A DNA stretch of 64,000 nucleotides from Thermoguttaceae bacterium (GTDB taxonomy: Bacteria; Planctomycetota; Planctomycetia; Pirellulales; Thermoguttaceae), in assembly GCA_025060325.1 (NCBI GenBank), contig JANXBW010000028.1, positions 1 to 64,000 on the forward strand, in the 5' to 3' direction. Of the stretch, positions 6,812-24,187 are shown piece by piece. A model generated the notes under the pieces. That model was not told the origin of the DNA. It did no database searches and saw nothing but the letters and a program-made list of their open reading frames with translations. The translations under genes were made by a program, and so were the position numbers. Every line of letters begins with the position of its first letter. Position 1 is the stretch's first letter.

Positions 6812-8449
6812 TTATTCTTCAAAGTCCTCAAAGTCCTCCGGTCCGCGCTTCGGTCTCTCGGGCTTCTTCTTTGGGATTTCGGTTATCAGGCATGAGGTCG
6901 TCAACAGCAGGGAGGCTACGCTGGTCGCATTCTCAAGAGCCACGCGGACCACTTTTGCCGGGTCGACAATGCCGGCCTCTACCATGTCGCAGTAGACGCC
7001 TTTCTCGGCGTCGAAGCCCTCGTTCTTGTCCTTGGACTGCTTGATCCTGTTGACAGCCACGCCACCGTCATGCCCGGAATTTTCCACGATCCAGTAAAGT
7101 GGCATTTCCAGGGCTTTTTGGACCACCTTTGCCCCGAGAGCTTCGTCGCCACTGAGTTCAAGCTTCTCCAGCACCTTCCCGGCGCGAATCAAAGCGACCC
7201 CACCGCCGGGGACAATTCCCTCGGCCAAGGCAGCTTGGGTAGCAGCCTTAGCGTCCTCCATGAGGGCCTTGCGCTCCTTCATTTCGGTCTCGGTGGCCGC
7301 TCCCACCATGATCTGCGCCACCCCGCCGGCCAATTTGGCCAATCGTTCTTGCAACTTTTCCCTGTCGTAGTCGCTTGTAGTCTTTTCGATTTCCCGGCGA
7401 ATTTGCTCGGCACGACCCTCAATCGCCTCCTTCTTTCCGCCGCCACCGATGATCGTGGTGTCGTCGGCGGTGACCACCACTTTCTTTGCAGTCCCGAGGT
7501 CGGAGAGTTTCACCGACTCGAGCGAAATGCCTAAGTCCTTGAAGATCGGCTGGCCACCCGTGAGAATTGCGATGTCACCAAGCATTGCCTTCCGCCGCTC
7601 GCCATAGCCGGGGGCCTTCACCGCACAGCAACTCAGAATGCCCCTCAACTTGTTTACGACAAGCGTCGCCAATGCCTCCCCTTCGACATCTTCGGCAATG
7701 ACAAGCAGCGGCTTGCCAGACCGGCTCACTGCCTCCAAAAGCGGAATGAGCGGTTTTGCGCTTGAGAGCTTTTCCTCGTGGACGAGAATATAGCAATTTT
7801 CAAGCTCGCAGGTTTGCTCTTCCTGGTTGGTGACGAAGTGCGGCGACAAATAGCCGCGGTCAAATTGCATTCCCTCCACAAACTCGACGTATGTTTCCGC
7901 CTGCCGGCCCTCCTCGACGGTAATCACTCCATCCTTGCCAACCTTCATGAAGGCATCGGCCAGGACAGAGCCAATTTCCGGATCATTGTTGCCGGCGATG
8001 GTGGCCACCTGCATGATTTCCTTTTTGTTTTTCTCGTCGATCTTCTTTGCCATGCGGCGAATTTCCTCCACGACCGCCGCTGTCGCCTTATGCATGCCCC
8101 GCGCTAAGGCCATCGGATCAGCGCCGGCCGCGATCATCCGCAATCCTTCGCGGAACATGGCCTCGGCCAGCACAGTCGCTGTGGTCGTGCCATCACCGGC
8201 AACGTCGTTGGTCTTGGACGCTGCCTCTTTCACAAGCTGAGCGCCGAGATTTTCATACGCGTCCTGCAGGCTGATATCCTCGGCGACCGTCACGCCATCT
8301 TTGGTGATCTTCGGTGACCCCCAACCCTTATCCAAGACAGCATTCCGACCACGAGGTCCCAACGTTGTGCGGACTGCCCGGGCAAGCTTGGTTACACCCT
8401 CCAAAAGAGCCGTCCGGGCAGCTTCCTCGTAAACCATTTGCTTCGCCAC
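6812..8449 (-). CDS. groEL: GroEL chaperonin, copy 2
   Basis: A 545-aa chaperonin with the same architecture as copy 1: [17 protein letters not shown] (~30), [15 protein letters not shown] (~86), [15 protein letters not shown] (~191), [11 protein letters not shown] (~410). The C-terminus is acidic and aromatic ([10 protein letters not shown]) in place of the GGM tail. Initiation is at GTG with an excellent AGGAGG 10 nt upstream. It is the first gene of the minus-strand groE block and diverges from rpe. No CIRCE element was recognised in the 600-bp upstream gap, so HrcA control is not supported by the sequence. Confidence 0.96.
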
Positions 8450-9045
8450 TGTCGGAGTCCTCCTTCGTATCGCTCGCTAACAGGGTGCCTGCGTGGTTTT
8501 TAACACCTGGTCGTAAGGGTGGCACACCGAGTTCGCTTAACCCCCGAAACTACTGGCCGCGAACTTTCAGGGTTTGCCAGCCCTATGCTGGTTTTAGACA
8601 AAGTACTGTGGGCCGGCCTATCCAGTAAGAGATCGAGGGTTCCGAACTAAACGATCCGGGTACAAAATTGGCAGGTCTTTTTTGTCGTTTCAGAAATTGC
8701 AAGCTATATGCCCAACTTATGGCTGAAAGACATAAGTCTTAGCTTGTAATGGAGTTGCGTCGAAAATTCCCAAGCTGGGGTGTTCGAGGCTAGGCTACCG
8801 AGCGATCGAGCTGCCACTTTGACAGCCGAGCCGATCGAGAAAGTTTCTGGGGAAACCCTCCGGGGTTCTGATCAAGGGCCGCTCGCCGTAGTCCGGATCA
8901 TTTCCGAGGCTCTATCGGCGGTTTTTATTTCAGGAAACAACTGTCGCGACCCGCTGAGACACCGGGTTAGGCCAGCCGGCTTGAGTCCTTTCGCCATAAA
9001 ATGCACCTAAAAAGAGAAGTTTCCTAGGGAACGAGCGAGGTGCAG
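8450..9045. other. Divergent intergenic region groEL2 / rpe
   Basis: About 600 bp between two divergent genes, so promoters for both must lie here. No CIRCE inverted repeat, no convincing -35/-10 pair and no reading frame with protein character was recognised. Confidence 0.4.
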
Positions 9046-9783
9046 ATGAGTCCTGCCAAGATCGATGCATCACGTACGTGGTTATCCGGAATCCGAAACA
9101 ACCGACCGGTAATCGCCCCTTCGCTTCTTGCCTGTGACTTCGCCCGCCTTGGGGAAGAGGTCCGCGCCTTGGAAGCCGCCGGGGCGGAGGTGCTTCATAT
9201 CGACGTCATGGACGGGCACTTCGTCCCCAACTTGAGCATGGGGGTACCCATTGTTGAGGCCATCCGACGGACGACCTCTCTGGCCCTGGACGTCCACTTA
9301 ATGCTTGACAATCCGGAAGAATTCATCGCACCTTTCCGAAAGGCCGGCGCTGATGCGCTGACTGTTCACATCGAGGTTTGCCCTGACCCCCGGCCGATTC
9401 TGGACGAGATTCGCTCGCTAGGGGCGGCGGCCGGCCTCAGTCTAAACCCCCCGACTCCCGCGGAAGTTCTTTGCCCGTTTTTAGGCGAGTGTGACCTCGT
9501 ATTGGTGATGAGTGTGATGCCCGGCTTCGGTGGTCAACCCTTTCAGGCATCCGCCTTGGAAAAGCTCAGGCTCTTGAGGCGGGAGGCTCCCCCGCAGTTG
9601 GTACTATCCATCGATGGCGGCGTAAAAGCAGAAAATGTGGCGCAATGCGCAGGCGCTGGTGCTGATCTTCTGGTGGTTGGGACCGGATTATTCGCCGGGC
9701 TGGAGGGAGACTATCGCGTGCGGTTGGATAAGCTTCGGGCAAACGCCCTGCGCGGTTGCTTGGCAGATGCCGCCCCGGCTTGA
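9046..9783 (+). CDS. rpe: Ribulose-phosphate 3-epimerase
   Basis: A 245-aa TIM-barrel enzyme interconverting D-ribulose 5-phosphate and D-xylulose 5-phosphate in the pentose phosphate pathway. Motifs seen in order: IAPSLLACDFARLGEEV, VLHIDVMDGHFVPNLSMG with the metal-binding His/Asp, LDVHLML, VMSVMPGFGGQPF, SIDGGVKAENV with the second catalytic Asp, and VVGTGLF phosphate binding. The ATG at 9046 is preferred over the GTG at 9040 because GAGG ends just before it. About 20 residues precede the barrel, slightly longer than most Rpe. It is divergent from groEL2. Confidence 0.94.
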   Translation: MSPAKIDASRTWLSGIRNNRPVIAPSLLACDFARLGEEVRALEAAGAEVLHIDVMDGHFVPNLSMGVPIVEAIRRTTSLALDVHLMLDNPEEFIAPFRKAGADALTVHIEVCPDPRPILDEIRSLGAAAGLSLNPPTPAEVLCPFLGECDLVLVMSVMPGFGGQPFQASALEKLRLLRREAPPQLVLSIDGGVKAENVAQCAGAGADLLVVGTGLFAGLEGDYRVRLDKLRANALRGCLADAAPA

Positions 9784-10069
9784 CACTCCACTCGGCGACG
9801 TGAACCGCCCGCCCGGAAAACAGAGAATCCGCTACACCAGGGAACGGGAAAAAGCCGGTTATCCAGATTCAAATCCCGAGGGATGATCAAAGATTTCCTC
9901 CACGCGACCGGCAGGGCTAATGATAAAGCAAGCGGCCCCGGAGGGAATTGCGGGGGTTTAAAGCATGCTACTGGGGGTAGCACCTATCGGAGGTCTTTCT
10001 CCAGGCAGTGTGATCTCCGCAGCTCCCCCCGGCTGTTGTACATCAAGTCAGCGTTATGCGAGGAACTAA

Positions 10070-11623
10070 TTGAAGAGTGCACCGGAAAACGGAAGGATTA
10101 AGTTCGCACGGCACGAACACAGAGCCCGACAACATCTACGTCGGCCCGAGCCGAAAATGAGCCACAAAGAAACTAAGCGGCAACCGGCGACAGGCAGCGC
10201 CGAAAACCTTTCGCAAATGAGCCTGGGCGAAGGACCCGGCCATCCCAAACCCCGGGGAAGCTTTAGCATCATCTCCCTAGGGTGTCCGAAGAATTTAGTT
10301 GACTCCGAGCAAATCGGGGCGCAACTAACCGCGGCGGGCTTGCGGTTTACTCCGAAGCTTGAAGGCGCAGACCTCATCGTCGTCAACACGTGCGGTTTCC
10401 TCGCAGCGGCGCGCGAGGAATCTCTCCGCGCCATTCACGAGGCCGTCGACCTCAAACGTCGAGGATTCGCCCGGGCAGTCATCGTGACCGGTTGCTTAAG
10501 TCAGTGGGAGGGGGAAAAGCTACTTGAGCTTTGCCCTGGGGTAGACCAAGTCGTCGGTGTTTGGGGCGAGCCAAAGCTCGGAGAATTGGCCACTGCCATT
10601 TTGACAACTGGCCGACCTGCCGATGGCCGGGCCTACTTGCCTTTGGAACCAACCGCTCAAACGAGCCAATCGCAGACCGCCGAACCATTTCCGCCCCGCC
10701 TTCGCCTCACATTGCCACATGTTGCTTATCTCAAAATTGCGGAGGGCTGCGACCGGTTTTGCACTTTTTGCACCATCCCCAAGATTCGCGGGCATTACCG
10801 GAGCCGTCCCCTCGACTCCTTGGTGGCTGAAGCACAAGCATTGGCGGCTTCAGGGGTCCGCGAGCTAATCCTTGTGGCACAAGATACCACGTATTATGGC
10901 GTGGATATCATCGGACGACCGTTGTTAGCGGAGCTGCTCAAACGCTTGGACCGAATTGAGGGCCTGTTGTGGATTCGGCTTCTTTACCTTTATCCCACCC
11001 ACGTAACGGAGGAGCTCGTTCACACCGTTGCCAACTGCAAGCGGGTCATCCCCTATCTGGACCTGCCGCTCCAGCATATCAACGATAAAATCCTGCGGCG
11101 AATGAACCGGCAGGTAAGTCGGGAGGAGATTGAAAGGCTCCTTGCGCACCTCCGGGAAAGCCTCCCCGGGTTGGTTCTTAGAACAACTTTCCTGACTGGC
11201 TTTCCAGGCGAGACGGAGGCAGAATTTGCTGAGCTATGCGAGTTCGTTCGTCAACAGCGGTTTGAACATTTAGGAGTCTTCGCTTATTCGCCCGAACCAA
11301 ATACTCCGGCTTTAAAACTTGAAGACCAAGTTCCCGAAGCTGAGCGGAAGAGGCGGGCCGAGCGCCTGATGGCTATCCAGCAGGAAATTGCTTTCGCCTG
11401 GCTTGAGTCCCAAATCGGTTCAACAGTCGAGGTATTGATAGATCTCCGCGTGCCGGGCGAGAAAGACGCCTTTGTGGGACGCACATACGCCCAAGCCCCG
11501 GAAATCGATGGGGTCGTCTATGTCACTGGCCGGGGCCTCCGGCCGGGGATGATAGTCCCGTGCGAGTTAGTGGCCCGCCATGGATATGACCTGGTGGCCG
11601 CGGCAGTGGGCAAGCCGCGTTAG
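10070..11623 (+). CDS. rimO: Ribosomal protein S12 methylthiotransferase RimO
   Basis: A radical-SAM enzyme that methylthiolates an aspartate of ribosomal protein S12. The N-terminal MTTase domain has its three cluster cysteines in SLGCPKN, VNTCGF and TGCLSQ. The radical-SAM CxxxCxxC lies in EGCDRFCTFCTIPKIRG, followed by YLYPTHV and PYLDLPLQH. A TRAM-like segment closes the protein. As written it is 517 aa from a TTG with AGGAA upstream. Family members are about 430-480 aa, and ATG codons at 10157 and 10217 are plausible alternatives, because the first ~65 residues have no family counterpart. CDS identity is firm; the start is not. Confidence 0.92.
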   Translation: MKSAPENGRIKFARHEHRARQHLRRPEPKMSHKETKRQPATGSAENLSQMSLGEGPGHPKPRGSFSIISLGCPKNLVDSEQIGAQLTAAGLRFTPKLEGADLIVVNTCGFLAAAREESLRAIHEAVDLKRRGFARAVIVTGCLSQWEGEKLLELCPGVDQVVGVWGEPKLGELATAILTTGRPADGRAYLPLEPTAQTSQSQTAEPFPPRLRLTLPHVAYLKIAEGCDRFCTFCTIPKIRGHYRSRPLDSLVAEAQALAASGVRELILVAQDTTYYGVDIIGRPLLAELLKRLDRIEGLLWIRLLYLYPTHVTEELVHTVANCKRVIPYLDLPLQHINDKILRRMNRQVSREEIERLLAHLRESLPGLVLRTTFLTGFPGETEAEFAELCEFVRQQRFEHLGVFAYSPEPNTPALKLEDQVPEAERKRRAERLMAIQQEIAFAWLESQIGSTVEVLIDLRVPGEKDAFVGRTYAQAPEIDGVVYVTGRGLRPGMIVPCELVARHGYDLVAAAVGKPR

Positions 11624-11807
11624 GAAGCTGGTAAATCAACTAAAATTCTCGGCAGCCAAGCGTAGACAATTAGCACGGACAAATCATGACGCTTGCCCGG
11701 TCCTTATCCCTGCAAACAAGGCTTATTGAAAGCCTAAAAATGGGCAGATCGTGCACGGCGGGCTGGGAATCCACCGAAGGCTCACAAAGAACCAGTCGGA
11801 GTTTTTC

Positions 11808-12437
11808 ATGTCATCGATAAGTCTTCCCCGACTAGCGAATTTAGGACTACCTAATTGGATCACATTAGGGCGACTGGTGTTGGCCCTTGTGCTCTTTGTT
11901 GTGCTTTCACTACCGGTCGACGGGCGCTACACGGCCGGCTTTGTCATTTTTTTGCTTGCCGTGGGCAGCGATTGGATTGACGGTTATGTCGCCCGCCGGT
12001 TTGGGCTTACCTCGTCCCTCGGACGAGTGTTGGATCCGTTTGTTGATAAAATCTTAATATGTGGGACATTGGTTTTTCTCGTGGCTGAGCCTGTGTTTCG
12101 GCATCGAGCTGAGCTTCTTCAGCCGTGGATGGTTGTGCTTGTGATTCTGCGGGAACTCCTTGTGACAGCCATGCGTGGTTGGGCGGAAGAGCGAGGACAA
12201 GACTTTTCGGCGCAGCTTGCGGGTAAGACGAAAATGGTGATTCAAAGCGTCGCCTGTGCCGCCGGGCTCCTGTTTGTCGCTTGGCATACAAAGAGTGGCG
12301 AGACGCCCTTTTGGCTTGGGCTTACTTTGGCGACGTCGGTTTGGCTCATGGTCGTCGTGACGGTCTACTCCGCCTGGGTTTATGCCGTCAAAGCGGCAGT
12401 AGCGGAGACAGGTCGCGAGAGAGCCGCGCAAAACTGA
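11808..12437 (+). CDS. pgsA: CDP-alcohol phosphatidyltransferase, probably PgsA
   Basis: A 209-aa multi-pass membrane enzyme with the CDP-alcohol phosphotransferase signature DGYVARR...GRVLDPFVDK (residues ~62-85, Asp residues of the two-metal site all present). It starts NLGLPNWITLGRLVLALV, the N-terminus typical of phosphatidylglycerophosphate synthases, which make PGP from CDP-diacylglycerol and glycerol 3-phosphate. About five hydrophobic segments are visible. The ATG at 11808 is chosen because GGAG precedes it and the family N-terminus begins there. It is followed 120 bp later by a CPBP membrane protease. Another CDP-alcohol substrate cannot be excluded. Confidence 0.88.
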   Translation: MSSISLPRLANLGLPNWITLGRLVLALVLFVVLSLPVDGRYTAGFVIFLLAVGSDWIDGYVARRFGLTSSLGRVLDPFVDKILICGTLVFLVAEPVFRHRAELLQPWMVVLVILRELLVTAMRGWAEERGQDFSAQLAGKTKMVIQSVACAAGLLFVAWHTKSGETPFWLGLTLATSVWLMVVVTVYSAWVYAVKAAVAETGRERAAQN

Positions 12438-12557
12438 TGAGGGGCGCCTCCGGCCATTCCAAAAAAGCCGCCCACAGGGTATAGCCCAAATAGACGTCCC
12501 GGAAGAGAAACTTATTGGCTTACCCTGATTATCTCCCATTTAACGGTGTCTGTCTAA

Positions 12558-13535
12558 ATGACAAGACTTCCCGGTGGTGAACTATTGGGAACAGCGGTGA
12601 TTGCACTTTTGCTCGGTGCCAGTCTTCTCATCTGGGTAACGATCTTGGCTCGGTGGATTGGCAGATTGCCCGTCCTCCCGTACCAGCCACGACTAATAGC
12701 CCGCTGGACCGGAAAAGAAGTGCTGGCTGTTTTCCTCCTTTTTCACTGGTCATTCCTTTTCAACTTCGTTTTCCAGATTTTGGAAATTGTCACACCGGAG
12801 GACCCAGCGAGCAGCGTAACCGCGACATCGGCCGAGGAAGAGCCAGTCCCCGAGTCCAACGGACAGAAAGATATTCAGGAGAAGGACATCCTCCACCCGG
12901 TGATAATCCTTCTTCAATCTGATCCAAGCCCATCAACCTTATTAATTTGCTCGTTTTTGGTGGTGGTCCTTGCGCCTGTGGCCGAAGAGTTTGTCTTCCG
13001 TATGGTCCTCTTGGGCTACGCATTGCAAAAAGAGAAGTATTGGCGGATTAGCCGAACAAAACCCCTGAATCTACCGCGCGGTGGGCTTTCCGTCCTGATT
13101 GTCTCGCTGTGGTTTGCGTTTCTGCATGGCCGAGTCAGTGGCGAAGGACCGCCACATCAGAAAGCTATTTGGGGGGGACTGATCCTCACCGGGGCGCTTG
13201 CGTTGGTAACCATTGTCTTAGTGTTTTCCATTGCCGCCTCCAAAGGAGGATCATTTTGGCAGAATCTGGGGGTTTTGCCCCAGAAACTGCTCTCAGACCT
13301 TTGGCTTGGAACGTTGGGCTTCTTGGCGGTGTCGCCGCCGTTATGGGTGGTCCAAGCACAACTAGTACCGATATTTGCCAAGTGGGGTATTGCCCCCGAT
13401 CCGATCCCCATTTTCCTGTTGGCGCTTGCTTTGGGGACCCTCACCGCAACGACGGGGCGAATTGTGCCTGCAATCATGCTCCACGTATGGCACAACTTTT
13501 CAAGCTTACTGATAGCGTTGCTGAGCGACATGTAA
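12558..13535 (+). CDS. CPBP-family intramembrane metalloprotease
   Basis: A 325-aa polytopic membrane protein with the three CPBP/Abi (Rce1-like) motifs: APVAEEFVFRMVL (the EExxxR motif, residues ~140-150), WFAFLHG (~190) and HVWHNFSSLL near the C-terminus. In Rce1 these residues form the glutamate/histidine catalytic site. About seven hydrophobic segments are seen. A hydrophilic loop (~80-115, rich in Glu) precedes the core. Substrates are unknown; bacterial members process prenylated or other membrane peptides or mediate bacteriocin immunity. It lies 120 bp downstream of pgsA on the same strand. Confidence 0.85.
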   Translation: MTRLPGGELLGTAVIALLLGASLLIWVTILARWIGRLPVLPYQPRLIARWTGKEVLAVFLLFHWSFLFNFVFQILEIVTPEDPASSVTATSAEEEPVPESNGQKDIQEKDILHPVIILLQSDPSPSTLLICSFLVVVLAPVAEEFVFRMVLLGYALQKEKYWRISRTKPLNLPRGGLSVLIVSLWFAFLHGRVSGEGPPHQKAIWGGLILTGALALVTIVLVFSIAASKGGSFWQNLGVLPQKLLSDLWLGTLGFLAVSPPLWVVQAQLVPIFAKWGIAPDPIPIFLLALALGTLTATTGRIVPAIMLHVWHNFSSLLIALLSDM

Positions 13536-14666
13536 GCCGCACCAGCTTGGTGCCCTGTGCTGAGTTGGACCTCCGCGGGAATTTGTAATACAAGCGGTCA
13601 CCGATCGGCCAAGGCGGGTAGCAGGCCAGGTGGAACCGTAGGGTTAGTATCCACATCGTTTTCCAGAGAGGCCAAGCTCGCTTGATTCCCCGCCGCCTCG
13701 AAGGTCGGGAGAACCTCTAGGGGTTTTTCAAAGGATTTCCCTCCCACCTCCCCCTCGGTAAGGGTCCCTTTGGCATACAAGTTGATCTAACGCGGCCGAA
13801 GCATGCTGCCGTAAGCGCCACAGACTGCAACTTAGGTCGCTGAGCACACTCAGGACGCTTGCGCAAATTCCCTACGATTTGACTTGTCTCCTCAGAATCC
13901 CACCGCCAGTCTCTTGGTGGCGGCCGCTAAAGCACATTTCTTGTCGCTTTAAGCCCCCAAACCTGCTAATCGCCGAGCGTTCGTAGAAATTGGGCGACTG
14001 CACCGATTTGTCTCCAGGCACCCCCAAACAGGCCGATGCTAAATAACTCCACACGGGAGGGATAGCGCAAGCATCTGAACACGATCTTTCCAAATAAAAA
14101 GGTCTGGCCCCTCTCTATGGGTTCTACCAGCAAGCTGTCTGGCGCCACAGTTCCGTTGTGGAGCTATTTTGGGTTCTCCACTTCTTGTCCACCGCGGCCA
14201 GCACCAGGTTGGAGACCACCCCCGAAACTGATGCAAGCACAACATGTTGTGCTAGCAGTGGCCCTGATTAGAAAATATGGCCATCGCTTGAGATAGAACT
14301 CCGGCGCGGTAAACTTTGCGGCATCTTGCTTCCGACCGGTGGGAGAAAGCCCTAGCGGCAACGGAGGTTGCTGAAACGGACTAATGGATTTGTGATGGAG
14401 GGCCAACACCCACGCGTCCAATCCCGAAGTAGCTCGCCGTACACGCCGGGGAAGGCGAAGGCCGTGCGGTGCATATCTTCTCTGATAGCCCCGGCATAAA
14501 AACTTTGCGGCAAAAAACCGATTCCCCTGGTAGAACCGTGCTTCGCGGTAAGTGTACGCATGTACACATCGCGCGTGGGATGGGCGGACCAGGCCACGTT
14601 TCGGCATGGCCTCCCTGTCGCTGGGCCAGACGCAGGAGCATTTAGCATCGCGGAAGGAGGTCGCTC
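13536..14666. other. 1.1-kb gap without a convincing gene
   Basis: No frame shows family motifs. A minus-strand open frame runs through 14352-14640 and into the next gene in antisense; its sequence is not recognisable. Immediately upstream of 14667 lies AAGGAGG for the next gene. A GCACCA/TGGTGC hairpin follows the CPBP stop but lacks a U-run. Confidence 0.35.
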
Positions 14667-15413
14667 ATGCGGTCGAAACCGGTCATCGGCATCAACACGG
14701 ACTACGTCTCCGGCCCTCGTCCTCGCCTGAGCTACTGCGCTCTTTGGGCAGGCTACTTTGACTGTGTTCATCAGGCAGGGGCTGTGCCGATCATCTTTCC
14801 TCCTATCCCTGATCTTGCTGCCATCCACCAGATGCTCGACCGCGTCGACGGTGTGGTGCTTATTGGCGGCGGTGACCTTGACCCGCTCCGCGACGGTTGC
14901 CACCGCCACCATCGCCTAAAGCTCCTCGATCCCCGGCGAGAAGACTTCGACCGGATGCTCGCCCGAGCACTAGCACAGCGCCACATCCCCGTCTTCGGCA
15001 TCGGAGCCGGCATGCAGCTTCTCAACGTCTCTCAAGGCGGAAAACTCATGTTGCACATTCCCGACGACAAGGACGATGCCCTGCCCCATTGGGATTCATC
15101 CGATCCCAACCATCGGCATGGGCTCCGCGTCCTGCCAGATTCCCTCCTTGGCCGTGTTTACGGCGAAAGCGAAATCCGGGTTAACTCAATGCATCACATG
15201 GCTGTGGACGAAGTTGCCCCGGGCTTCCGCGCCACTGCTTTTGCACCGGATGGACTCATCGAGGCTATCGAGAGCACCTCGCCCGACTGGTTTGCGATCG
15301 GCACCCAATTTCATCCTGAGGCTGATAGCGCCTCCGCCCTCGACTTTCGCATCTTCGAGGAGTTTGTAGACGCAGTAAAGCGCCGAAGCGTGTCCGTTCG
15401 CTTGGCGGCCTAA
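14667..15413 (+). CDS. C26-like (gamma-glutamyl-GABA hydrolase family) protein with altered nucleophile site
   Basis: A 248-aa class I glutamine-amidotransferase-fold protein of the PuuD/C26 group: KPVIGINTDYV at the start, GVVLIGGGDLDP (~70), IPVFGIGAGMQLLNVSQGG (~108-125), VNSMHHMAVDEVAPGFRATA and IGTQFHPE (~213-218). Active members carry GICRGMQ, where the cysteine is the nucleophile. Here the cysteine position is Gly113 and the next residue is Ala. His216 and Glu218 of the triad remain. So it may be catalytically dead or use another mechanism. A perfect AAGGAGG precedes the ATG, which argues that the gene is expressed. It stands alone between two large gaps. Confidence 0.8.
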   Translation: MRSKPVIGINTDYVSGPRPRLSYCALWAGYFDCVHQAGAVPIIFPPIPDLAAIHQMLDRVDGVVLIGGGDLDPLRDGCHRHHRLKLLDPRREDFDRMLARALAQRHIPVFGIGAGMQLLNVSQGGKLMLHIPDDKDDALPHWDSSDPNHRHGLRVLPDSLLGRVYGESEIRVNSMHHMAVDEVAPGFRATAFAPDGLIEAIESTSPDWFAIGTQFHPEADSASALDFRIFEEFVDAVKRRSVSVRLAA

Positions 15414-16208
15414 AGCGGCAGCGCCAGCGATCTTCCGTCTTGAAATATTCGGCTGCGTTGATGTCGTCTCCCGCGACCCGTCCTCAAAGGCGGCAAGGAA
15501 GGCCCGTGCGGTTGCTGTCGGGGAATATCCCCACATTCTGACCAGCAGACCGGTTTCCTTAGCCCTCGAAAGCAACCACCTAAAACCAAGAAAAGTCTCT
15601 ACCGAACCGAGGTTTCTTTGGGCCGGCCAAAGCGACGGTAAGGGCCGCGGGGAACACATGTGCTATTTAACAACACTTGCCCTGGCGGTTTGCAGCAATC
15701 CGGCCACCAGTTACGAGGGTCCGCAGCGCTCTTGCGCCGGGTGTGAGTGGCCCACTTTGAAAGGCAAGTACGAAGTTCGGTATCACTTCCCAACTCGCAC
15801 GTTCACCCAAACTGCCAGCCTCACCGCCGAATTGAAAATGCGCCCCCTTTGATTGCGCTTGGCGAGCCCGGCGGGCACTCCGTCAACCAAATAAAGCCAG
15901 CCAAATAGGTAAAGATCGCCTGAGGGGCAACGAGAAGAGTTTGGCGTGGCCAAATTCTCTGGATCAATCGTAAGTAAACCACGCCCGGCAGGCTATTAAT
16001 CTTCGCGCATGATTTGGGGCCGCGCGATAGCAAGGCGCGACGGGCGGTCCCCGAAACAGGCATCGCTATGTCGGAAAAGCCGGCTTCCGGGCGTAAGAAG
16101 CTAGCCTGCTGTTTATGATCTCAAGGGCGACCCGCCATTGGCCGCACTAACGCGCACACCGCGCAGGGAGTCAAACGGGGGTTGCAGAAACGCATCCCGC
16201 ACAATGGC
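15414..16208. other. 0.8-kb gap between convergent genes
   Basis: It lies between the convergent C26-like gene and the PQQ-type propeller gene. No reading frame with protein character, no RNA gene and no clear terminator was recognised. Confidence 0.35.
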
Positions 16209-17705
16209 TTATTTCGCTTGGACAGGCAGAGTGGGCACGGCCAAAAGGCGAGAATACGTGCGAACGAAAACATTGTCCCTTGCAATAGCCGGCGTCGCAT
16301 GAGTTCCTTCCGCCAAATTAAATCTCGAAAGGACCTCAAACCTGCGTGCTGCGCGTAGAATCACCACCTCGCCCTGGCGAGAGATGTTGAAAATTTGGTC
16401 CCCGGTGCGAACCGGTGACGCAAAATACTGTCCACCTAACCGCTCTTTCCACAAAACGGCCATCTGCTTTAACTCCACACAGCTTACCACGCCCCTATCG
16501 GACCAGAGAAACACAAGGTCACCCGCTGCGACCGGTGTCGGAACGTAAGGTATGTCTTGGGCAAGCTCAAGCACTTTAGTTGGTTGCTGCCCTACCTCTG
16601 CCGGATAGCGGACGACCACAAGTTGTCGGCCGACGCCGCCCTCGCCTGATGATGCAAAGATAAACCGATCTGCCACAAACGGAGAGGCAACGACCCGGAA
16701 GCGGAAGACCGGCAGCTCCCAGACGGGTTTTCCCGTGTGCAGATCAAGCACGCTTATCCCGTGTGCCCAACTTGTCAACACAATTTGCGGTTCCCGCCCT
16801 GCGGGGGCAAGCACCGCGGGGGTGCTGTAGGCCGTCTTTTCCGACCGCCGTGGAGTCCGCCATACTAGTTGCCCGGTGCTGGCCTCCAAAGCAACGACAC
16901 AACTCTCCCCGTCTTGCTCATTGGGCAAAATAACAAGTCCATCGGCTACGATCGGGGAGGCCCCAAAACCATGTTCGGCCACGAAAGGCCCGAGCCTCTG
17001 CCGCCACAATTCGCGACCGGAGGTTCGGTCCAAAGCAACGACGACAAGCTCCTCCGGGTTGCCCCAGGCCCAGTAGATTCGCTTTTCGTCTACAGCTGGC
17101 GTTGACGAAGCATAGCAATTAAACGAGTGGACGCGGTGGGGCCGGGAGGGATAGCGCTTCTCCCAGACCAGGCTGCCATCCTCCGCTCGATAAGCCCGGA
17201 GGATCTGAGTGGCGTCCTCGGGCAAAGCCGAGGTAACGTAAACCAGATCGCCCCATACAATTGGCGAGGAATGGCCCACACCAGGTAAATCCACTTGCCA
17301 GCGGATGATCCCCCCGGTCCACTCAAGCGGCACGCGCACATCGTCGCGCTCGCCTCGGCCATTCGGTCCCCGGAAGCGCGGCCACGTGTCCCCCGGAGCG
17401 GCATCGACTTGCGGCTCACCCGCGCCGACCACCTCAAAGGGCACAAACCCCAAGCCAAGAATAATCAGAAACCACACAAGCCAGAACATGCACAAGCCCT
17501 GGGCACGAAAATCGTCCAACGTTCCGTGCGGAATGCGAGCACCTTTTCCCTTAACCATAAAGAGCATACACGCACCGGCCTTTTTCACAAGGGTTAGCAG
17601 CCTCTGGCAAGAACGCTTCCATTTGTTGGCCATCGCTGCCTGTTTCTCAGTCCCAAAGTCTGACCCTAACTGGGAGAGTTTTCGCACCCAGGGTAACTCC
17701 GCCAT
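16209..17705 (-). CDS. Membrane-anchored or exported PQQ-type beta-propeller protein
   Basis: A 498-aa protein with a hydrophobic segment at residues ~73-95 followed by a soluble propeller. Starting at GDTWPRFRGPNGRG, repeats of the PQQ/BamB type appear: GSLVWEKRYPS, SGRELWRQRLG, TGQLVWRTPR, TGKPVWELPV and MAVLWKERLGG, each ending in the W-containing blade motif. This opening, WPRFRGPNG, is common in planctomycete outer-membrane BamB-like proteins of unknown role. The first 70 residues are polar, so a downstream start (for instance ATG 17489, just before the hydrophobic segment) may be the real one. It lies 101 bp beyond the DUF2961 gene on the same strand and may be co-transcribed. Confidence 0.82.
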   Translation of the reverse strand: MAELPWVRKLSQLGSDFGTEKQAAMANKWKRSCQRLLTLVKKAGACMLFMVKGKGARIPHGTLDDFRAQGLCMFWLVWFLIILGLGFVPFEVVGAGEPQVDAAPGDTWPRFRGPNGRGERDDVRVPLEWTGGIIRWQVDLPGVGHSSPIVWGDLVYVTSALPEDATQILRAYRAEDGSLVWEKRYPSRPHRVHSFNCYASSTPAVDEKRIYWAWGNPEELVVVALDRTSGRELWRQRLGPFVAEHGFGASPIVADGLVILPNEQDGESCVVALEASTGQLVWRTPRRSEKTAYSTPAVLAPAGREPQIVLTSWAHGISVLDLHTGKPVWELPVFRFRVVASPFVADRFIFASSGEGGVGRQLVVVRYPAEVGQQPTKVLELAQDIPYVPTPVAAGDLVFLWSDRGVVSCVELKQMAVLWKERLGGQYFASPVRTGDQIFNISRQGEVVILRAARRFEVLSRFNLAEGTHATPAIARDNVFVRTYSRLLAVPTLPVQAK

Positions 17706-17806
17706 TTTTTCGGCAACTCACCGCTGGGAGCAACAAAACAAAATGGTTAGGGAAGCCCTCCTCGGCGTAAACAGCTTTGAGAAAAAAGCAGCGAGGCCGA
17801 AAATGA

Positions 17807-18922
17807 TTACTTGCTCTCCGGCCAAATGTCTTTGCACCGATCTTCAACTGACGGTAGCGGCGGAAGCGGTTCGCTGGGCACCGGCTCGTACCAGAAAGTG
17901 GCACAACACCAATCATCCTGGGTTTCAACTAGTCCGTTTTGCCAAGCAATTTGCTGAATGGTGATCCGCGCATATTGTTGCCACATAATTGGGTCGACAA
18001 TGTGCCAGCGGTACATCGAAACAAAGTTCTTTTCGGCCAGCGAACAGCCATTATAAAAGAACGGCGTCTGCTGAATGCCCCAGGCCAGTCCGACGTAATC
18101 CTCGCTGCCAGTGCCGCAGATGGTCGGCCATTCCTTATCTCCGTCCATGTAAACTTTTAACTCCCCCTCCCCCCACCAGCGCTCAGGGTGGAGATTACGA
18201 ACGCCGATGACCGTGCCCAAAAATCGGCCCTTCTGGTTCCGCTGGGGCAGGATCTCAAAGTCTACCTTCAGCGTGGTGGGATTTTCCCGGCGGAAAAGCA
18301 CATGGAGTCGCCCGACGTCCTCAGGGTGCTTATCGCCAAGCGTATACGTGATCTGGTAAAACAGAGGGACGGCCTTCTGGCCATCGTTGCGGAAGGTGAT
18401 CCGGGCTCTTTTCGTAAACGGCATAGGTATCCAAATGTTCCGCCCGCCGGTTGGGCCCACTGAGTGAACTGCCGAATGGTACGGCATGATCTTTCCATGG
18501 GCAAAGCCAAAGAAATCACCAATGGGGCACTCGATGCTAGGGTGCTCCTGCCCGTCCCACCATGCGCGGATGACGCACGCCCGCTGGGTTGTCGGGTCCT
18601 GAGCTGTCGTCATCCAGATGTGCCGAATCGTCCCAGGACCCTCAATGTCGCAAAGCTGGACCTCCTCGCCCGGGTTGATCGTCCGGGAAGGAGAACCCTT
18701 GCGGCCAGGACCGAGCCGACTGGCAGCCTTCCCTCCTTCGCCAGGTGCACCTGTCGGGTTTTCGAAGGAAATTGATCGGGATACGACCCCCGCGTCAAGC
18801 AGATACGGTCTGTGAATAAGGTCAACACTCTGCCCAAGAACAACTTGTGGACCAAGCCCACAGACAACTACGAAAGTAACGAGGTGAAGCAGACTTAAGG
18901 ACTTTAGTACAGCTTGCGGCAT
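17807..18922 (-). CDS. Exported DUF2961 / GH172-type protein
   Basis: A 371-aa protein with a signal peptide (MPQAVLKSLSLLHLVTFVVV ending near VLGQ). The DUF2961 core shows CDIEGPGTIRHIWMTT, IRAWWDGQEHPSIECPIGDFFG, GTGSEDYVGLAWG and YRWHIVDPIMW. DUF2961 is now glycoside hydrolase family 172, whose characterised members act on fructofuranosides or arabinofuranosides; the conserved SED and EGPG regions seen here contribute to the active site. The ATG at 18922 is chosen because AGGAGG lies 9 nt upstream and the signal peptide begins there; a 43-residue upstream extension is not coding-like. The substrate cannot be read from the sequence. Confidence 0.87.
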   Translation of the reverse strand: MPQAVLKSLSLLHLVTFVVVCGLGPQVVLGQSVDLIHRPYLLDAGVVSRSISFENPTGAPGEGGKAASRLGPGRKGSPSRTINPGEEVQLCDIEGPGTIRHIWMTTAQDPTTQRACVIRAWWDGQEHPSIECPIGDFFGFAHGKIMPYHSAVHSVGPTGGRNIWIPMPFTKRARITFRNDGQKAVPLFYQITYTLGDKHPEDVGRLHVLFRRENPTTLKVDFEILPQRNQKGRFLGTVIGVRNLHPERWWGEGELKVYMDGDKEWPTICGTGSEDYVGLAWGIQQTPFFYNGCSLAEKNFVSMYRWHIVDPIMWQQYARITIQQIAWQNGLVETQDDWCCATFWYEPVPSEPLPPLPSVEDRCKDIWPESK

Positions 18923-19262
18923 AGACAAGCCTCCTTCTGAGTTCGCCCAAGAACCAATCCGATGTGAAACTCTTTGCGCCCTGACAACGTACACTCCGTA
19001 ACGGAGGAACGTGAACTCACGGCTCACACATTGCGGCTGACATAATACCACCCCAGTTTATCGAAATCCAGGATAAGCCGTCGGGAATAACCGCTCCAAA
19101 TTCTGGGCGACATTCTCGGGAAAAGCAAATCGCCGACTCAGGAAGCTCAAGACCCCGACTGCCGTAGGTTGAGAGTCTGGTTCGAGGAGCTCTCCGATCC
19201 GAAACGCGGAGGCGCTAAAAGTACCAGAGCCGAGCAGCACGTTTACAGGCTCTTTGACAAGC

Positions 19263-20624
19263 TTAGGTGGCTTCGTCTCCCAAGGTGTGCTTGCGGCGCA
19301 AGAGGTGATGATAATGCTGCGCGAAGCGATGAGCTTCATCGCGAACATATTGCAAGAGCCGAAGGGCAAACGACTCTCGTCCAAGCCGCAACGGTTCCTC
19401 TTTGCCGGGAAGGTAAAGCTCTTCCTCCCGCTTTGCGACCGCCACCAAAGCAGGCGGTTCGACGCCTAAGGTATGAAACGCCTCTTGCGCTGCGTGAAGT
19501 TGCCCTTTCCCGCCATCGATAAGCAACAGGTCGGGAAAGACTTCCTCTTCCTCTGTTAATCGACGAAATCGCCGGTAGACCACCTCTCGAATGGCAGCGT
19601 AATCGTCAACACCCTGGACAGTCTTAATTCGGTAGCGCCGATAACCGGGCTTGAATGGCAATCCGTCGATAAATTGCACCACGCTTGCTACGGTGTCACT
19701 TCCTGCCAGGTGGGCCACATCGACCCCCTCGATTGTCCGCGGGACCTTCTTGAGCTTAAGCACTTTCCGTAGCCCGAGTAGGCCCTTACGTGGGTCAACC
19801 GGAAACACTTCCGGCTGAACATGTTCTTCCAATTCCCCGCGTTCGTCTAAGGTTTCTAGCAACTGAATCTGATCGCGAAGCCGGGCAGCTTCTTCATAAC
19901 GCCTGGCCGCTGCTGCCTCGGCCATCTCCCGACGCATTTCCTCCAGAAGCGAATGCTTCTCCCCTTCCAGGAATCGCTGTAGTTGATGAATCGCCTTGCG
20001 ATACTCTTCTTTGCTGACACGCAGATTACAAGGGGCAAGACACTGGCCGATCGAATAAAGCAAACAGGGCCGGTACCAACGCCACCGCGGATCATCCGCT
20101 TTGATGTCCAAAGAACATGTGCGGAATTTGAAGATCTTTTGCAGCACCTGAATTGCCCCGCGCAGTGCACTGGCATTGGCAAACGGTCCATAGAGCTTTG
20201 TTCCACGTCGGCGGGGTTCACGGGTAAACTCAACTCGGGGAAAATCCTCCCGAATGTAAATTTGAAGATACGGGAACGTCTTATCGTCGCGAAGCTCGCG
20301 ATTGAATTTCGGCTGAATATCCTTGATAAGCCGAGCTTCCGTCAACAACGCGTCAACTTCGCTTTCCGCTTCGATGAAGTCAAGATCGTAGATTTCACGG
20401 AGAAGCGGCCCTATCCGCGGATCGTCTGCCGCACCCTTGGCGAAATAGCTGCTCACTCGCGAGCGCAGGTCTTTCGCCTTGCCGACATAAATGACCCGAC
20501 CCGCAGCATCTTTCATTAGATAAACACCAGGGCGATGGGGCAGGGTCTTAGCCTTTTGCGCACAGGCCTCATAGCCGCCCGGTAGATTCTGCACAGCTTC
20601 GCTTTCCGGTAGTTCCGCGTCCAT
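19263..20624 (-). CDS. uvrC: UvrC-type excinuclease, short form lacking the C-terminal HhH
   Basis: A 453-aa UvrC (E. coli is 610). The GIY-YIG nuclease is at residues ~30-105 (RPGVYLMKD, IYVGKAKDL), a UVR helix pair at ~215-250, then the RNase H-like 5' nuclease with its residues in VDVAHLAGS, GVDDYAAIRE, LLIDGGKGQL and VRDEAHRFA, matching E. coli Asp399, Asp438, Asp466 and His538. The ~100-residue segment usually between UVR and the second nuclease is reduced to about 35. The protein stops right after the RDEAH region, so the (HhH)2 DNA-binding domain is absent. No HhH was found in the frame just downstream. It makes both incisions in nucleotide excision repair. Confidence 0.92.
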   Translation of the reverse strand: MDAELPESEAVQNLPGGYEACAQKAKTLPHRPGVYLMKDAAGRVIYVGKAKDLRSRVSSYFAKGAADDPRIGPLLREIYDLDFIEAESEVDALLTEARLIKDIQPKFNRELRDDKTFPYLQIYIREDFPRVEFTREPRRRGTKLYGPFANASALRGAIQVLQKIFKFRTCSLDIKADDPRWRWYRPCLLYSIGQCLAPCNLRVSKEEYRKAIHQLQRFLEGEKHSLLEEMRREMAEAAAARRYEEAARLRDQIQLLETLDERGELEEHVQPEVFPVDPRKGLLGLRKVLKLKKVPRTIEGVDVAHLAGSDTVASVVQFIDGLPFKPGYRRYRIKTVQGVDDYAAIREVVYRRFRRLTEEEEVFPDLLLIDGGKGQLHAAQEAFHTLGVEPPALVAVAKREEELYLPGKEEPLRLGRESFALRLLQYVRDEAHRFAQHYHHLLRRKHTLGDEAT

Positions 20625-21314
20625 ACTCAGTTAGCGTAGACCTCCAAAGTACCTCGCCAAGCACAAACTGGTGGCCCGACGAATGTCCAGCCACCTTTAC
20701 CAATCAAATAGTCCACCAGCTCTCTTTTCATACCTGGTTGACTTCCGGGACATGGCGTCCGACGAAAAATAGCGCCCCCAGAAACCTTGCTCCCAAGATC
20801 TTCCTCACCCAGGAACCAAGGCCATTCTTCGCCGTCGTTTCAAGCGGGCTTAGGCGCTCAACTATCCTTCAGTTGTGTCAAGCCCGCTTAAGCCAAACCG
20901 AATGGCCTACCTATTCGAAAAATTTTATCGAAATTTGGTAATCTCGCGTTGTTCTCCAGCTAATCGGGAGGTGCAGGAAATTGGGGGGCAGCCGAGGTTC
21001 GCGCAAGCAAACTCGGTTGACAAGAAGGTGACTCGCGCTCGAGGGCTTACGGTTTTAGTCCCGAGCTCCGGCGCCGGCGTGTTCGGTCACACGGTACACC
21101 TAAGAGAACTCCCTCAAGATGCCGGCAGCAAACCCGGGCCGGAAAGCCTGGTCGAATACGCTTTAACCACGCAGGGGGCTCCAAGGCTAAAAGACAAGGC
21201 CTATCCACGGGAGATACGGCGACCCTATAAGGCCAAAGCGATCGTTCGAGCTTTCGAGCATTGGCTACCCTGCTAAAGCGTTAGCGCGGATGCTTAAAGG
21301 AAAGCCGAGGATAG
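20625..21314. other. 0.7-kb gap with a compound inverted repeat
   Basis: The notable structure is an inverted repeat AAGCGGGCTT (20842-20851) / AAGCCCGCTT (20880-20889) that encloses a second stem CAACT/AGTTG (20859-20863, 20871-20875). A plus-strand open frame at 20875-21276 has no recognisable features and is not called as a gene. Confidence 0.4.
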
Positions 21315-21839
21315 CTAGCTCGCGGCTGCGACTAACTCGGCGCTTTGGGCTTCGGGTATCCGGCGGTCGGAAAGCTCCTTTAAAAACTTACCGATCGCGA
21401 AGACCGTCTTCCAGCTGCACGGAAGAACAATCGCTGGGTAAACCTGGCCTTCAGGAAAGTTCCGGTGCAAGGAAAGATACAGCCCGCCCCGATCTAAGTG
21501 CAACGCGGTCACTTTGCACCAGGGGATAAACCGGTAGTGTTTGGTCCCCCACCACCAGTGGATGCCGACCTCGTCCAGTTGGTATTTCTCGGAGACAAAA
21601 ACCCTTGACAAGGAGAGGGCAATCATCCCGCCGGCAAGTAGGCCAAGATAGAGAAACCCACTAACTGCCCAGGTCAGTCCAACGACCAATAGAAGACCGG
21701 CTAAAATCGGCACGCCGCGGTCTTTGTCCTCCCACAAGGAGGGCTTGTTCCACCGCACGGGATGTGGGACCTGCCCCACCTGCGCGGACGGACAACGGAT
21801 GGTGCTACAGCTTGCAAGTTCCACTAAAGCTTGGCTCAT
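21315..21839 (-). CDS. Hypothetical membrane protein with two transmembrane segments
   Basis: A 174-aa protein of unknown function. A polar N-terminus (~45 residues with two cysteines) is followed by two adjacent hydrophobic segments (VPILAGLLLVVGLTWAVSGF and LYLGLLAGGMIALSL), then a soluble C-terminal half (EKYQLDEVGIHWWWGTKHYRFIPW; IPWCKVTALHL) whose alternating pattern resembles bacterial PH-like membrane domains. The domain call is only an impression. The ATG at 21839 is preferred to the one 18 bp upstream because AAGGGA precedes it. Neighbouring gaps give no functional hint. Confidence 0.65.
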   Translation of the reverse strand: MSQALVELASCSTIRCPSAQVGQVPHPVRWNKPSLWEDKDRGVPILAGLLLVVGLTWAVSGFLYLGLLAGGMIALSLSRVFVSEKYQLDEVGIHWWWGTKHYRFIPWCKVTALHLDRGGLYLSLHRNFPEGQVYPAIVLPCSWKTVFAIGKFLKELSDRRIPEAQSAELVAAAS

Positions 21840-22406
21840 CCTAAATCCCTTGACCAACCAACCGGCACGTTGGAGAGAAGATCACGTCCCTGTCGGTTCG
21901 GCAAATTAGATCCCGCGGGGAGCTATCCCCGTTAACACTCTCCATGAGTGCCGTTCACGCGAAAAAGATCACCCAATCGAGAGGAGATCTTCCTCCATGA
22001 ATTCGAGCTTTTGCCGTCCATATGAGCCGAAAAAGTCACGCGGCCTTAAGTTCTCCTAACAATACGCCCGGTGCGACACCAAGTTTCAAACCCCAGCACT
22101 AGATCAAACCTGATTACCGTCGTTAACCCCGGCCTGGAAATTAGCTTTCGGATGCCAGCGCCCGCTTCTGCTATAAACCCCTGCTTGGTCCAAATCGCAC
22201 CGATCCCTATTCTATATCGCACCCAATCCAGGTGGAGGGTCAACGCGCCTCGGGCACGATAAGCCTGCCAGTGTCGCCAATTGTCTGGCTAGAAACAGTA
22301 AACCTTGCGAACGGAGATCCGCCCCGGCCTTTGCTTCCGACAACCACCACACTCTTATGCCGAAGCGTGGTATGTGGGATTCGGGCGTGTTAACGCCTGC
22401 CATCCC
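21840..22406. other. 0.57-kb gap
   Basis: No protein-like frame, RNA gene or terminator was recognised between the two minus-strand hypothetical genes. Confidence 0.35.
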
Positions 22407-23357
22407 CTATTGTATTCGTCGAAGAAGCTCGAGCAATGTCCCCACTTCTCGGTGAACTTCCTCAGTCTGACGTATGATCAACGCCTGACCAGGTGGCCAA
22501 TAGAAAATTCTGCCACGGCCGCCGTTTACCTCCCACGTTTCCGGCCGAACAACCGTTTCGATAAGCTCGATTAATTTTTCCGCATACCAGTCGGGGCTCG
22601 CTCCACCACCCAAGGGAAGCAAATCTGTGGACTTCTCTCCACCCGCGCTCGAATTCGCACCGATTGAACCCGCGGCCGTTAAAGGTTGTTTATTTTCACT
22701 ATGCTCGCTTGGTAGGCTCTCCTCGTTGAGCTGATGTGCATTTACTACTGGCTTTGCAGAACTACCGCCTGCGGCGGCACGGCGAAGCGAGTCCTTCAAC
22801 CGGCCTAATCGGACCGCCAAGCGACGCTGCAGAGTCCGCTTCTCGGCCAGTCCGATGGAGGAATCGCCCGCTATTCTCAGGTAAAGCTCGAGAAGCTCGG
22901 AAGCAGCTTGCGGCAAATCAGCCGGAGACGGGGAAACCCACCGCTTCAAAGTTTCCTCGACTTTTTGTCGATGAGGCGCGCGCTCAGAAACTCGAGAAAG
23001 GGAAACTCGGCTCAATGGTGTAGATTGCTCATTTCCCGGAGTATCCGCTCTGCGCGAAAAGGAGTCCGCGGCCGGGGGAGTGTCGAGGCATTCCCCACGG
23101 TTGATCCCACTGTCCGAGCAATCCCGTTTGCTAGCAGAAGGGTCGCTTGCCTTTTGAGCCCGGCCGGTCCGGGAATGATCAACCGGTACGGAAACTCCCA
23201 GTTGAGGTTCGGGCTCTGCCCGGCCGGCCACCGCGGCTGAATTGCACAATCCGGCGGCAAGGGAGAAAGCTACAGCCAGAACACAGCTCTGCAACTCCGG
23301 AGGTCGAATCACCACCTCGGAGAAAAATCCACCTTTCGAAGGAGATCGGTGCTCCAT
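22407..23357 (-). CDS. Exported planctomycete-type hypothetical protein
   Basis: A 316-aa protein with an N-terminal hydrophobic stretch (ELQSCVLAVAFSLAAGLCNS) consistent with a signal peptide, a long polar low-complexity middle rich in Ser, Arg, Glu and Pro, and a distinctive C-terminus: LIELIETVVRPETWEVNG, GRIFYWPPGQALIIRQTEEV, HREVGTLLELLRRIQ. This ~50-residue ending (W-E-x-x-G-G-x-G, a beta hairpin, then Q-T-x-E-V-H and a helix) recurs in many planctomycete exported proteins and resembles secretin-type N domains. The ATG at 23357 is set by a very strong purine-rich GGAGGGAGGTGG just upstream. Function unknown. Confidence 0.75.
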   Translation of the reverse strand: MEHRSPSKGGFFSEVVIRPPELQSCVLAVAFSLAAGLCNSAAVAGRAEPEPQLGVSVPVDHSRTGRAQKASDPSASKRDCSDSGINRGECLDTPPAADSFSRRADTPGNEQSTPLSRVSLSRVSERAPHRQKVEETLKRWVSPSPADLPQAASELLELYLRIAGDSSIGLAEKRTLQRRLAVRLGRLKDSLRRAAAGGSSAKPVVNAHQLNEESLPSEHSENKQPLTAAGSIGANSSAGGEKSTDLLPLGGGASPDWYAEKLIELIETVVRPETWEVNGGRGRIFYWPPGQALIIRQTEEVHREVGTLLELLRRIQ

Positions 23358-23524
23358 TTGCCTTACCACCTCCCTCCTTTCCTTTGCCACCTCCCCCTTA
23401 TTTACGCCCCCCGCCTATGACCACCCCCCAATTTTTGCTGCGCTCTCTAGCAAGCTGCCTCAAACCGGATCCCGTTCCGTGTCAGAACGACTCTCGCCCC
23501 GGCACCTGGCTGTTAAAGCCTGAG

Positions 23525-24187
23525 TCAACACTCCGCCGTCGCAACTAAGAACCCTCGGGCTACCGCTTCGTCGATAATGGTCGCGGCCAAATCCCATAGC
23601 TTTTCGCTGCCTTCCCGAATGTGGGCGTTCTTTCGGCGGACCTTCCCAGCATCAATTCCATTTTCTTGCCAAAGGCGACCGCGGTTTACGAAGTTAAGCA
23701 AGATGGGCAAGATCCGATCAATTGCCGCGGCAAATTGAGCCTCCCGAGTTTGCCGCGCCTCGAATTCGTCCCACAAGCTGCGGAATTTTACTGCTTGATC
23801 CGGCGGGAGCAGCGAGAAAAGCCGCTCCGCCGCTTGTCGTTCGACTTCTTTCTTCTGTGGCTCGAGGTGCTCGTCATAGACGAAAGTGTCGCCCGCCTCA
23901 ACCTCCACTATATCATGCACAAGAAGCATCTGCACCACCTTGGCGAGGTCCAAACCGCCGTTACTGGTTCGGCCCCATTCGGCCAATACAAGCGCCGCCA
24001 AGGCCGCGTGCCAAGAGTGCTCGGCCGAGTTCTCCCGGCGATTCCCCCCGACAATATATGTACGCCGCTGGACCTCCTTAAGCCGATCCACCACTGTCAA
24101 GAATTCAATCTGTTGACGAAGTCGCAAGCTTAAACCCTCTAGAAACTCGAAAGAGGGAATATCGCCGGTGCCAAGCGGTTGCGCCAT
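23525..24187 (-). CDS. HD-domain phosphohydrolase, YfbR-like
   Basis: A 220-aa HD-superfamily protein. The metal ligands are visible as His in ENSAEHSWHAAL, the HD pair in LLVHDIVEVEAGDTF and the last Asp in AAIDRILPILLNF, spaced as in the COG1896 / 5'-deoxynucleotidase YfbR group. A nucleotide monophosphatase role is therefore likely but the substrate is not proven. The ATG at 24187 is preferred over an in-frame GTG at 24265; the 26 extra residues are unlike the family. It lies downstream of mtnA on the same strand with a ~220-bp gap. Confidence 0.82.
   Translation of the reverse strand: MAQPLGTGDIPSFEFLEGLSLRLRQQIEFLTVVDRLKEVQRRTYIVGGNRRENSAEHSWHAALAALVLAEWGRTSNGGLDLAKVVQMLLVHDIVEVEAGDTFVYDEHLEPQKKEVERQAAERLFSLLPPDQAVKFRSLWDEFEARQTREAQFAAAIDRILPILLNFVNRGRLWQENGIDAGKVRRKNAHIREGSEKLWDLAATIIDEAVARGFLVATAEC

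Follow-up and report, generated by a model that had tools for sequence, protein, structure and literature searches.

The closest described systems to the protein analysed here are PuuD and SpuA, gamma-glutamyl-(GABA/polyamine) hydrolases whose structures (PDB 6vtv, 7d4r, 7d50 and 7d53) resemble it from one end to the other (Foldseek E 2.2e-21 to 4.9e-17, TMq 0.68–0.82, 28–32% identity) and have in common with it the His, the Glu and the NSxHH region. Unlike these hydrolases, the protein has no nucleophile Cys, carries a C-terminal tail and is near-universal in its planctomycete class. Solved relatives returned by sequence searches included Lin1909, SpuA and PuuD, the best-scoring being the uncharacterised C26 protein Lin1909 (PDB 3fij, E 7.9e-29), which differs in its intact I-C-R-G-M-Q elbow. 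Gamma-glutamyl bonds are the target of C26 enzymes, and anhydro-MurNAc is that of AnmK (anhydro-N-acetylmuramic acid kinase, PF03702), which is resembled by the downstream gene of some relatives; the two targets are parts of one muropeptide.

Amidotransferase domains without the Cys are already known from vertebrate CPS I, where, according to the part of PMC7657897 that deals with it, the nucleophile has been lost and the domain kept, as in the protein analysed here. The CPS I domain is part of a large synthetase, whereas the present protein is free-standing, with a match to the C26 profile. On the sequences compared, what appears to be new is a class-wide C26 pseudoenzyme and its pairing with an AnmK-like gene, neither of which was found reported in the open-licence PMC literature.

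The gene and its protein

The window, which is the whole stretch of 64,000 nucleotides of DNA that was analysed, encodes the protein on its forward strand, with the following features:

14655–14661 (+): ribosome-binding site AGGAGGT, read directly, just 5' of the ATG
14667–15413 (+): coding sequence for 248 aa, the C26-fold protein without the nucleophile Cys, ATG start, TAA stop
14865–14885 (+): GGGDLDP loop, residues 67–73, from the alignment
14997–15017 (+): former nucleophile elbow GIGAGMQ, residues 111–117, with the Gly113 codon GGA at 15003–15005
15111–15119 (+): HRH, residues 149–151, from the alignment; Arg150 is clade-specific
15183–15200 (+): NSMHHM, residues 173–178, from the alignment
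15288–15290 (+): Trp208, clade-specific, from the alignment
15306–15320 (+): QFHPE, which holds His216 and Glu218, the two triad residues still present, from sequence and alignment
15336–15344 (+): A-L-D, residues 224–226, from the alignment; Asp226 is clade-specific
15399–15410 (+): C-terminal tail R-L-A-A, recurring in the class and similar to the C-terminus of the ssrA tag of this genome

An earlier note on this DNA had described a Gly in place of the catalytic Cys in the elbow GIGAGMQ, with His and Glu kept, in an intact frame behind a good ribosome-binding site, and each of these elements is found in the sequence as listed. The 248-aa protein covers the whole of the Pfam profile PF07722 Peptidase_C26 (positions 1–219 of 219, E=2.3e-57), and this full-length match, together with a class I glutamine amidotransferase fold, makes it a member of Peptidase C26 by sequence and fold. 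The catalytic His216 and Glu218 are present, and the elbow Cys of an active hydrolase of this family is replaced by Gly113, at a place where Lin1909 (3fij) and SpuA (7d4r) align with I-C-R-G. The score with the NCBIfam PuuD equivalog NF008471 is 77.5 bits against a curated cut-off of 266, which further separates the protein from PuuD itself. An AlphaFold2 model obtained in a single run, with 40 Pirellulales sequences as alignment input, reached a pLDDT of 86.2 and a pTM of 0.87, and a Foldseek search with this model returned the PuuD/SpuA fold.

Comparison of the gene with those of two congeners gave pN values of 0.129 and 0.223 and pS values of 0.772 and 0.789 (dS being saturated), and because pN is far lower than pS the frame is under purifying selection. 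The earlier view that the gene is selected and not decaying is therefore upheld, both by these values and by the fixation of the substitution throughout the class described below, and purifying selection on a gene in which a residue essential for catalysis is consistently missing is the pattern expected of a pseudoenzyme. The window protein is almost certainly not a thiol hydrolase, and it is likely to be non-catalytic altogether.

Range and history of the cysteine loss

The class-wide extent of the loss, the additional loss of His and Glu in some orthologues, the conserved tail and an AnmK-like neighbour in part of the class are features that go beyond the earlier note. In a first set of 98 related loci (L003–L100, in which some genomes are counted twice, as two collections were searched), the elbow could be read in 97, L098 being truncated, and Gly stands at the place of Cys in all 97. 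A sequencing error at 15003–15005, which had been raised as a way in which the observation could fail, is excluded by this uniformity. Among 60 relatives searched, 57 gave a match at E <= 0.001 (a weak one in G025 and a partial one in G008), and G036, G046 and G058 gave none at this threshold and only weak pieces in a looser search. Over 294 genomes of the phylum, 21 genomes of the same class match at 1.2e-59 or better and all others at 6.6e-46 or worse.

Within the class, a match at E <= 0.001 is present in 247 of the 248 genomes sampled, and 239 match at E <= 3.4e-54 in the genome table. The nine weak or empty genomes were followed up: six hold an orthologue with Asp at the place of Cys, and no orthologue was seen in G432, G525 or G543, the last of which carries a Cys-bearing paralogue instead. 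The 16 sister-order orthologues (L134–L149) all have Gly, and none of 53 further in-class orthologues that were read has Cys, four of them (family f115) having Ala. The earlier note had proposed aligning homologues for conservation of the Cys-to-Gly change, and the outcome is clear: the 153 distinct orthologues of the class comprise 143 with Gly, 4 with Ala, 6 with Asp and none with Cys. By contrast, Cys is kept in 29 of the 29 homologues read from other classes (nine and the next 20, in each case the best-scoring loci) and in nine of nine in-class paralogues (L230–L236, L328 and L329).

The possibility that homologues all retain Cys has thus failed, and the class orthologues are parted from the Cys-bearing sequences by one branch of the tree. 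With 145 sequences, this branch (support 99) splits 129 Gly/Ala rows from 16 Cys rows; when the Asp group is added, the non-Cys set is still one side of one branch (support 96), with the Asp group lying on that side at the end of a long branch (1.54), the identity of its sister being unsure. Both are unrooted quick trees, so that a single loss of the Cys is the simplest reading of them and not a proof. Most simply, then, the Cys would have been lost once, in an ancestor of this planctomycete class. A near-universal pseudoenzyme that matches a gamma-glutamyl hydrolase profile would mislead metabolic models built on profile annotation.

The explanation that we hold to be reasonably likely is that the protein is a class-specific pseudoenzyme. 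A PuuD/C26-type gamma-glutamyl hydrolase would have lost its nucleophile Cys in an ancestor of the class and would then have been kept near-universally. Its former pocket, reshaped around Gly113, Arg150, Glu169 and the Asn-Ser-His-His motif, would most likely still be offered to a gamma-glutamyl-like ligand. The protein would act by binding this ligand or a partner protein and not by hydrolysis, perhaps in peptidoglycan recycling.

The C-terminal tail and the former active site

The protein ends in a variable linker followed by a short C-terminal motif. The last residue is Ala in all 87 Pirellulales sequences and the end reads [LM][VA]A in 76 of them, against 53 and 3, respectively, of the 318 flank ORFs, uncurated and 250 aa or longer, that formed the background. 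Outside family f111, 125 of the 132 sequences of the Gly/Ala set end in [VA]A, the seven deviants being L009, L133, L167, L203, L297, L298 and L314. The same end is found in two of 18 Cys homologues (L158 and L329), and five of the six Asp-type orthologues end in -AA and L340 in -VGA.

It could be argued that the protein is a short-lived regulator, the conserved tail being a ClpXP degron that ties protein level to proteolysis. The part of PMC7652416 concerned with ClpXP presents a terminal Ala-Ala as the key element, and in the corresponding part of PMC3511798 LVA tags likewise destabilise proteins, so that work on ClpXP makes a degron in this tail plausible by analogy. The frequencies given above fit such a role, and so do the window genome's own ssrA tag, which ARAGORN reads as ANTSLALAA, the ClpX zinc domain found in this genome and the low confidence of the tail in the AlphaFold2 model, where its final 8 residues have a mean pLDDT of 56. 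However, the looser [VA]A ending is no rarity in the background (21 of 318 flank ORFs), the seven deviants have to be accounted for, and family f111 (L177–L191) has the tail LA[KR][VA][GS] in 15 of 15 sequences and [VA]A in none of the 15, while its tmRNA tags, readable at 6 of 9 loci, each end in RLAA. A degron as the main explanation is for these reasons possible, though unlikely. The tail of f111 has the look of an extended or capped form.

Co-evolution of tail and tag was also considered, with the expectation that the protein tail follows the tmRNA tag. ARAGORN reads tags ending in LAA or MAA at 21 of 22 loci of one set and 19 of 23 of a second (the rest being three loci without a gene and the garbled tags of L116 and L257), and f111 contradicts the expectation. 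In the pseudoenzyme explanation, the -VA/-AA tail may either set the lifetime of the protein through ClpXP or serve as a docking peptide, the second being as possible as the first because f111 speaks against a simple degron.

The former active site was compared in an alignment of 147 Gly/Ala sequences (143 Gly and 4 Ala, as confirmed), 18 Cys sequences and the 6 Asp sequences. Residues that are near-fixed in the Gly/Ala set and not in the Cys enzymes include Arg150, Glu169, Asn173, Trp208, Leu225 and Asp226, of which Arg150, Trp208 and Asp226 occur in 147 of 147 Gly/Ala sequences and in 6 of 6 of the Asp type. D70, H141, H151 and H176 are each present in 147 of 147 sequences of the Gly/Ala set, His216 in 146 and Glu218 in 132, with Gln or His in the others. 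Met178, which gives the clade its HHM in place of the HHQ of PuuD/SpuA, is found in 96 of 147, and all 18 Cys homologues have Gln there. Loss of the Arg that follows the nucleophile was rejected as a signature: it is absent from all 147 Gly/Ala sequences, but it says little because just 9 of 18 Cys homologues have it.

Given this degree of fixation, it may be asked whether the protein is still an enzyme of another chemistry, its former pocket working with a water activated by His and Asp, with a metal or with assistance from the substrate. The fixed residues D70, H141, H151, H176 and His216 would also fit another catalysis, and the newly fixed Arg150 and the common Met178 point the same way. 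On the other hand, no replacement nucleophile was seen among the clade-specific positions, no Ser, Thr or Cys being seen to have become fixed close to the elbow, and a Cys one position after the nucleophile place occurs in just 9 of 97 readable relatives. Moreover, orthologues persist that have lost further residues of the old catalytic site. In the six Asp-type orthologues (L330–L334 and L340, from genomes G498, G403, G492, G427, G446 and G549), Asp replaces Cys and QWQPA replaces QFHPE/QWHPE, so that His216 and Glu218 are lost in all six, and D70 of the GGGDLDP loop is gapped in five of them. We therefore regard another chemistry as improbable.

The same six orthologues keep R150, E169, N173, S174, H176, W208, L225 and D226 in six of six cases each. 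Having lost the catalytic His and Glu and yet kept the clade-specific residues, they would seem to be under selection for something other than C26 catalysis, and this pattern is the strongest indication that the function they retain is a different one. Orthologues lacking the whole triad also offer a natural experiment on which residues serve the non-catalytic role.

The AnmK-like downstream gene and other neighbours

The only neighbour that recurs across orders is an AnmK-like gene directly downstream of the C26 gene. The comparison of the two genes used 150 C26 rows from 149 genomes and 117 AnmK rows from 100 genomes among the matches listed, leaving out AnmK rows that were further fragments of genes already entered. 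Among these matches, 55 of the 150 C26 loci have an AnmK hit on the same strand no more than 1.8 kb downstream, and none has one upstream. Both genes are listed in 73 genomes, and the pair is present in 54 of them; 17 of the other 19 have only a strongly matching AnmK elsewhere, and G002 and G558 have the diverged type, located elsewhere than the C26 gene, again among the matches listed. Two C26 genes are present in G560, and a separate AnmK accompanies each of them. A profile built from the adjacent type matched 28 of the 60 relatives, 20 of the matches lying no more than 500 bp downstream of the C26 gene and that of G035 at 1.9 kb; G000 and G001 gave no match with this profile.

No AnmK-like gene was found in the window's genome, which is 95.6% complete, nor any AnmK-like ORF within the window. 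Since no partner gene was found here, and just 100 of the 248 class genomes show AnmK among the matches listed, cell-wall recycling cannot be assumed for this locus, and the window protein probably acts without an AnmK-like partner.

The adjacent copies differ from strongly matching ones, most of them being without the MSGTSxDG and DFR motifs that the latter keep. We take the SG[ST]S.DG and DFRxxD motifs to be the phosphate and catalytic sites of AnmK; a literature search for the catalytic residue of AnmK returned no paper. The copy at L007 matches PF03702 with E 7.1e-37, over the cut-off, and the NCBIfam AnmK models below their cut-offs. All 8 strongly matching copies, each taken as a single gene, have DFRxxDxAxGG and 5 of the 8 have the exact SGTS.DG, while SG[ST]S.DG is kept in 2 of the 31 copies of the adjacent type (of which L304 is not adjacent) and the second Asp of DFRxxD in 29 of 31. 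In 29 pairs hand-picked from the AnmK list, and so not a random sample, the kinase motif SG[ST]S.DG is missing in 24 and intact in five (L302, L303, L308, L309 and L310), all of genus g346, G560 having two such pairs. L319, an AnmK of G549 without an adjoining C26 gene, also keeps the motif. Many pairs thus look like two proteins that have both left catalysis.

At the f16 loci (L296–L300 and others), the AnmK-like neighbour has diverged so far that Pfam recognises it only in pieces, and in several f16 genomes a strongly matching AnmK lies elsewhere. The same-strand downstream genes of f21 and f111 were considered as diverged AnmK copies and rejected, the best of seven ORFs reaching E 0.039 with the AnmK-like profile. 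Of four of these ORFs searched against Pfam, L269 matched SpoIIE/GAF, L281 HlyD and L272 amino-acid kinase and ACT domains, and L279 gave no Pfam match.

In the pseudoenzyme explanation, the product of the downstream AnmK-like gene would be the candidate partner in that part of the class where the pair occurs. As this partner is mostly without the kinase phosphate motif, the ancestral setting would probably have been the recycling or sensing of peptidoglycan fragments, a link suggested by the fact that the targets of C26 enzymes and of AnmK are parts of one muropeptide. Taken on its own, the proposition that the ancestral role touched cell-wall recycling is a tentative one. A more specific form of it, with low probability, is a sensor of peptidoglycan turnover made of two pseudoenzymes, in which the C26 protein would hold the gamma-D-glutamyl and the AnmK-like protein the 1,6-anhydro-MurNAc of the same anhydro-muropeptide; where the AnmK-like gene is missing, which seems to be the case in the window's species, the C26 protein alone would report gamma-glutamyl fragments. 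If the link to the AnmK-like gene is true, it provides a testable route into planctomycete peptidoglycan turnover, in organisms that, as a section of PMC5814848 recounts, had for a long time been described as having no peptidoglycan, until this changed with reports of 2015.

The comparison with vertebrate CPS I leads to a further alternative, namely that the protein is an ammonia- or ligand-tuned subunit whose Cys-less domain plays a structural or allosteric part for a synthase. The Cys has likewise been lost there from a class I amidotransferase fold, but no neighbour of synthetase type was seen recurring across orders, repeated neighbours other than AnmK being lineage-limited, so that the analogy, although a partner might be encoded elsewhere, is very improbable as an explanation. 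A local pseudogene or sequencing artefact is refuted by the class-wide fixation of the substitution and by purifying selection, and nothing was found in its favour.

The surroundings of the gene are not conserved, the window's neighbouring ORFs being matched in at most 4 of 98 other loci; ORFs that overlap the C26 gene match more often, as a shadow of that gene. The lineage-limited neighbours at 89 Pirellulales loci are a KAS-III-like gene lying upstream in the opposite orientation (29), IPP transferase (22), glgB (20), DJ-1 (12) and an Rce1-like protease (12). An Rce1-like membrane protein of the CAAX protease family is also encoded upstream in the window on the same strand (12558–13535, +), and this gene gave no profile match to the Rce1-like cluster found upstream at 12 of the 89 relatives' loci. 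A search of positions 8000–24000 with Rfam gave no match, and ARAGORN found no tRNA and no tmRNA over the window. Further along, a DUF2961 protein (17807–19051, -) adjoins a PQQ-type beta-propeller (16209–17705), and a 453-aa UvrC-like protein with GIY-YIG, UVR and UvrC RNase H domains is encoded at 19263–20624 (-).
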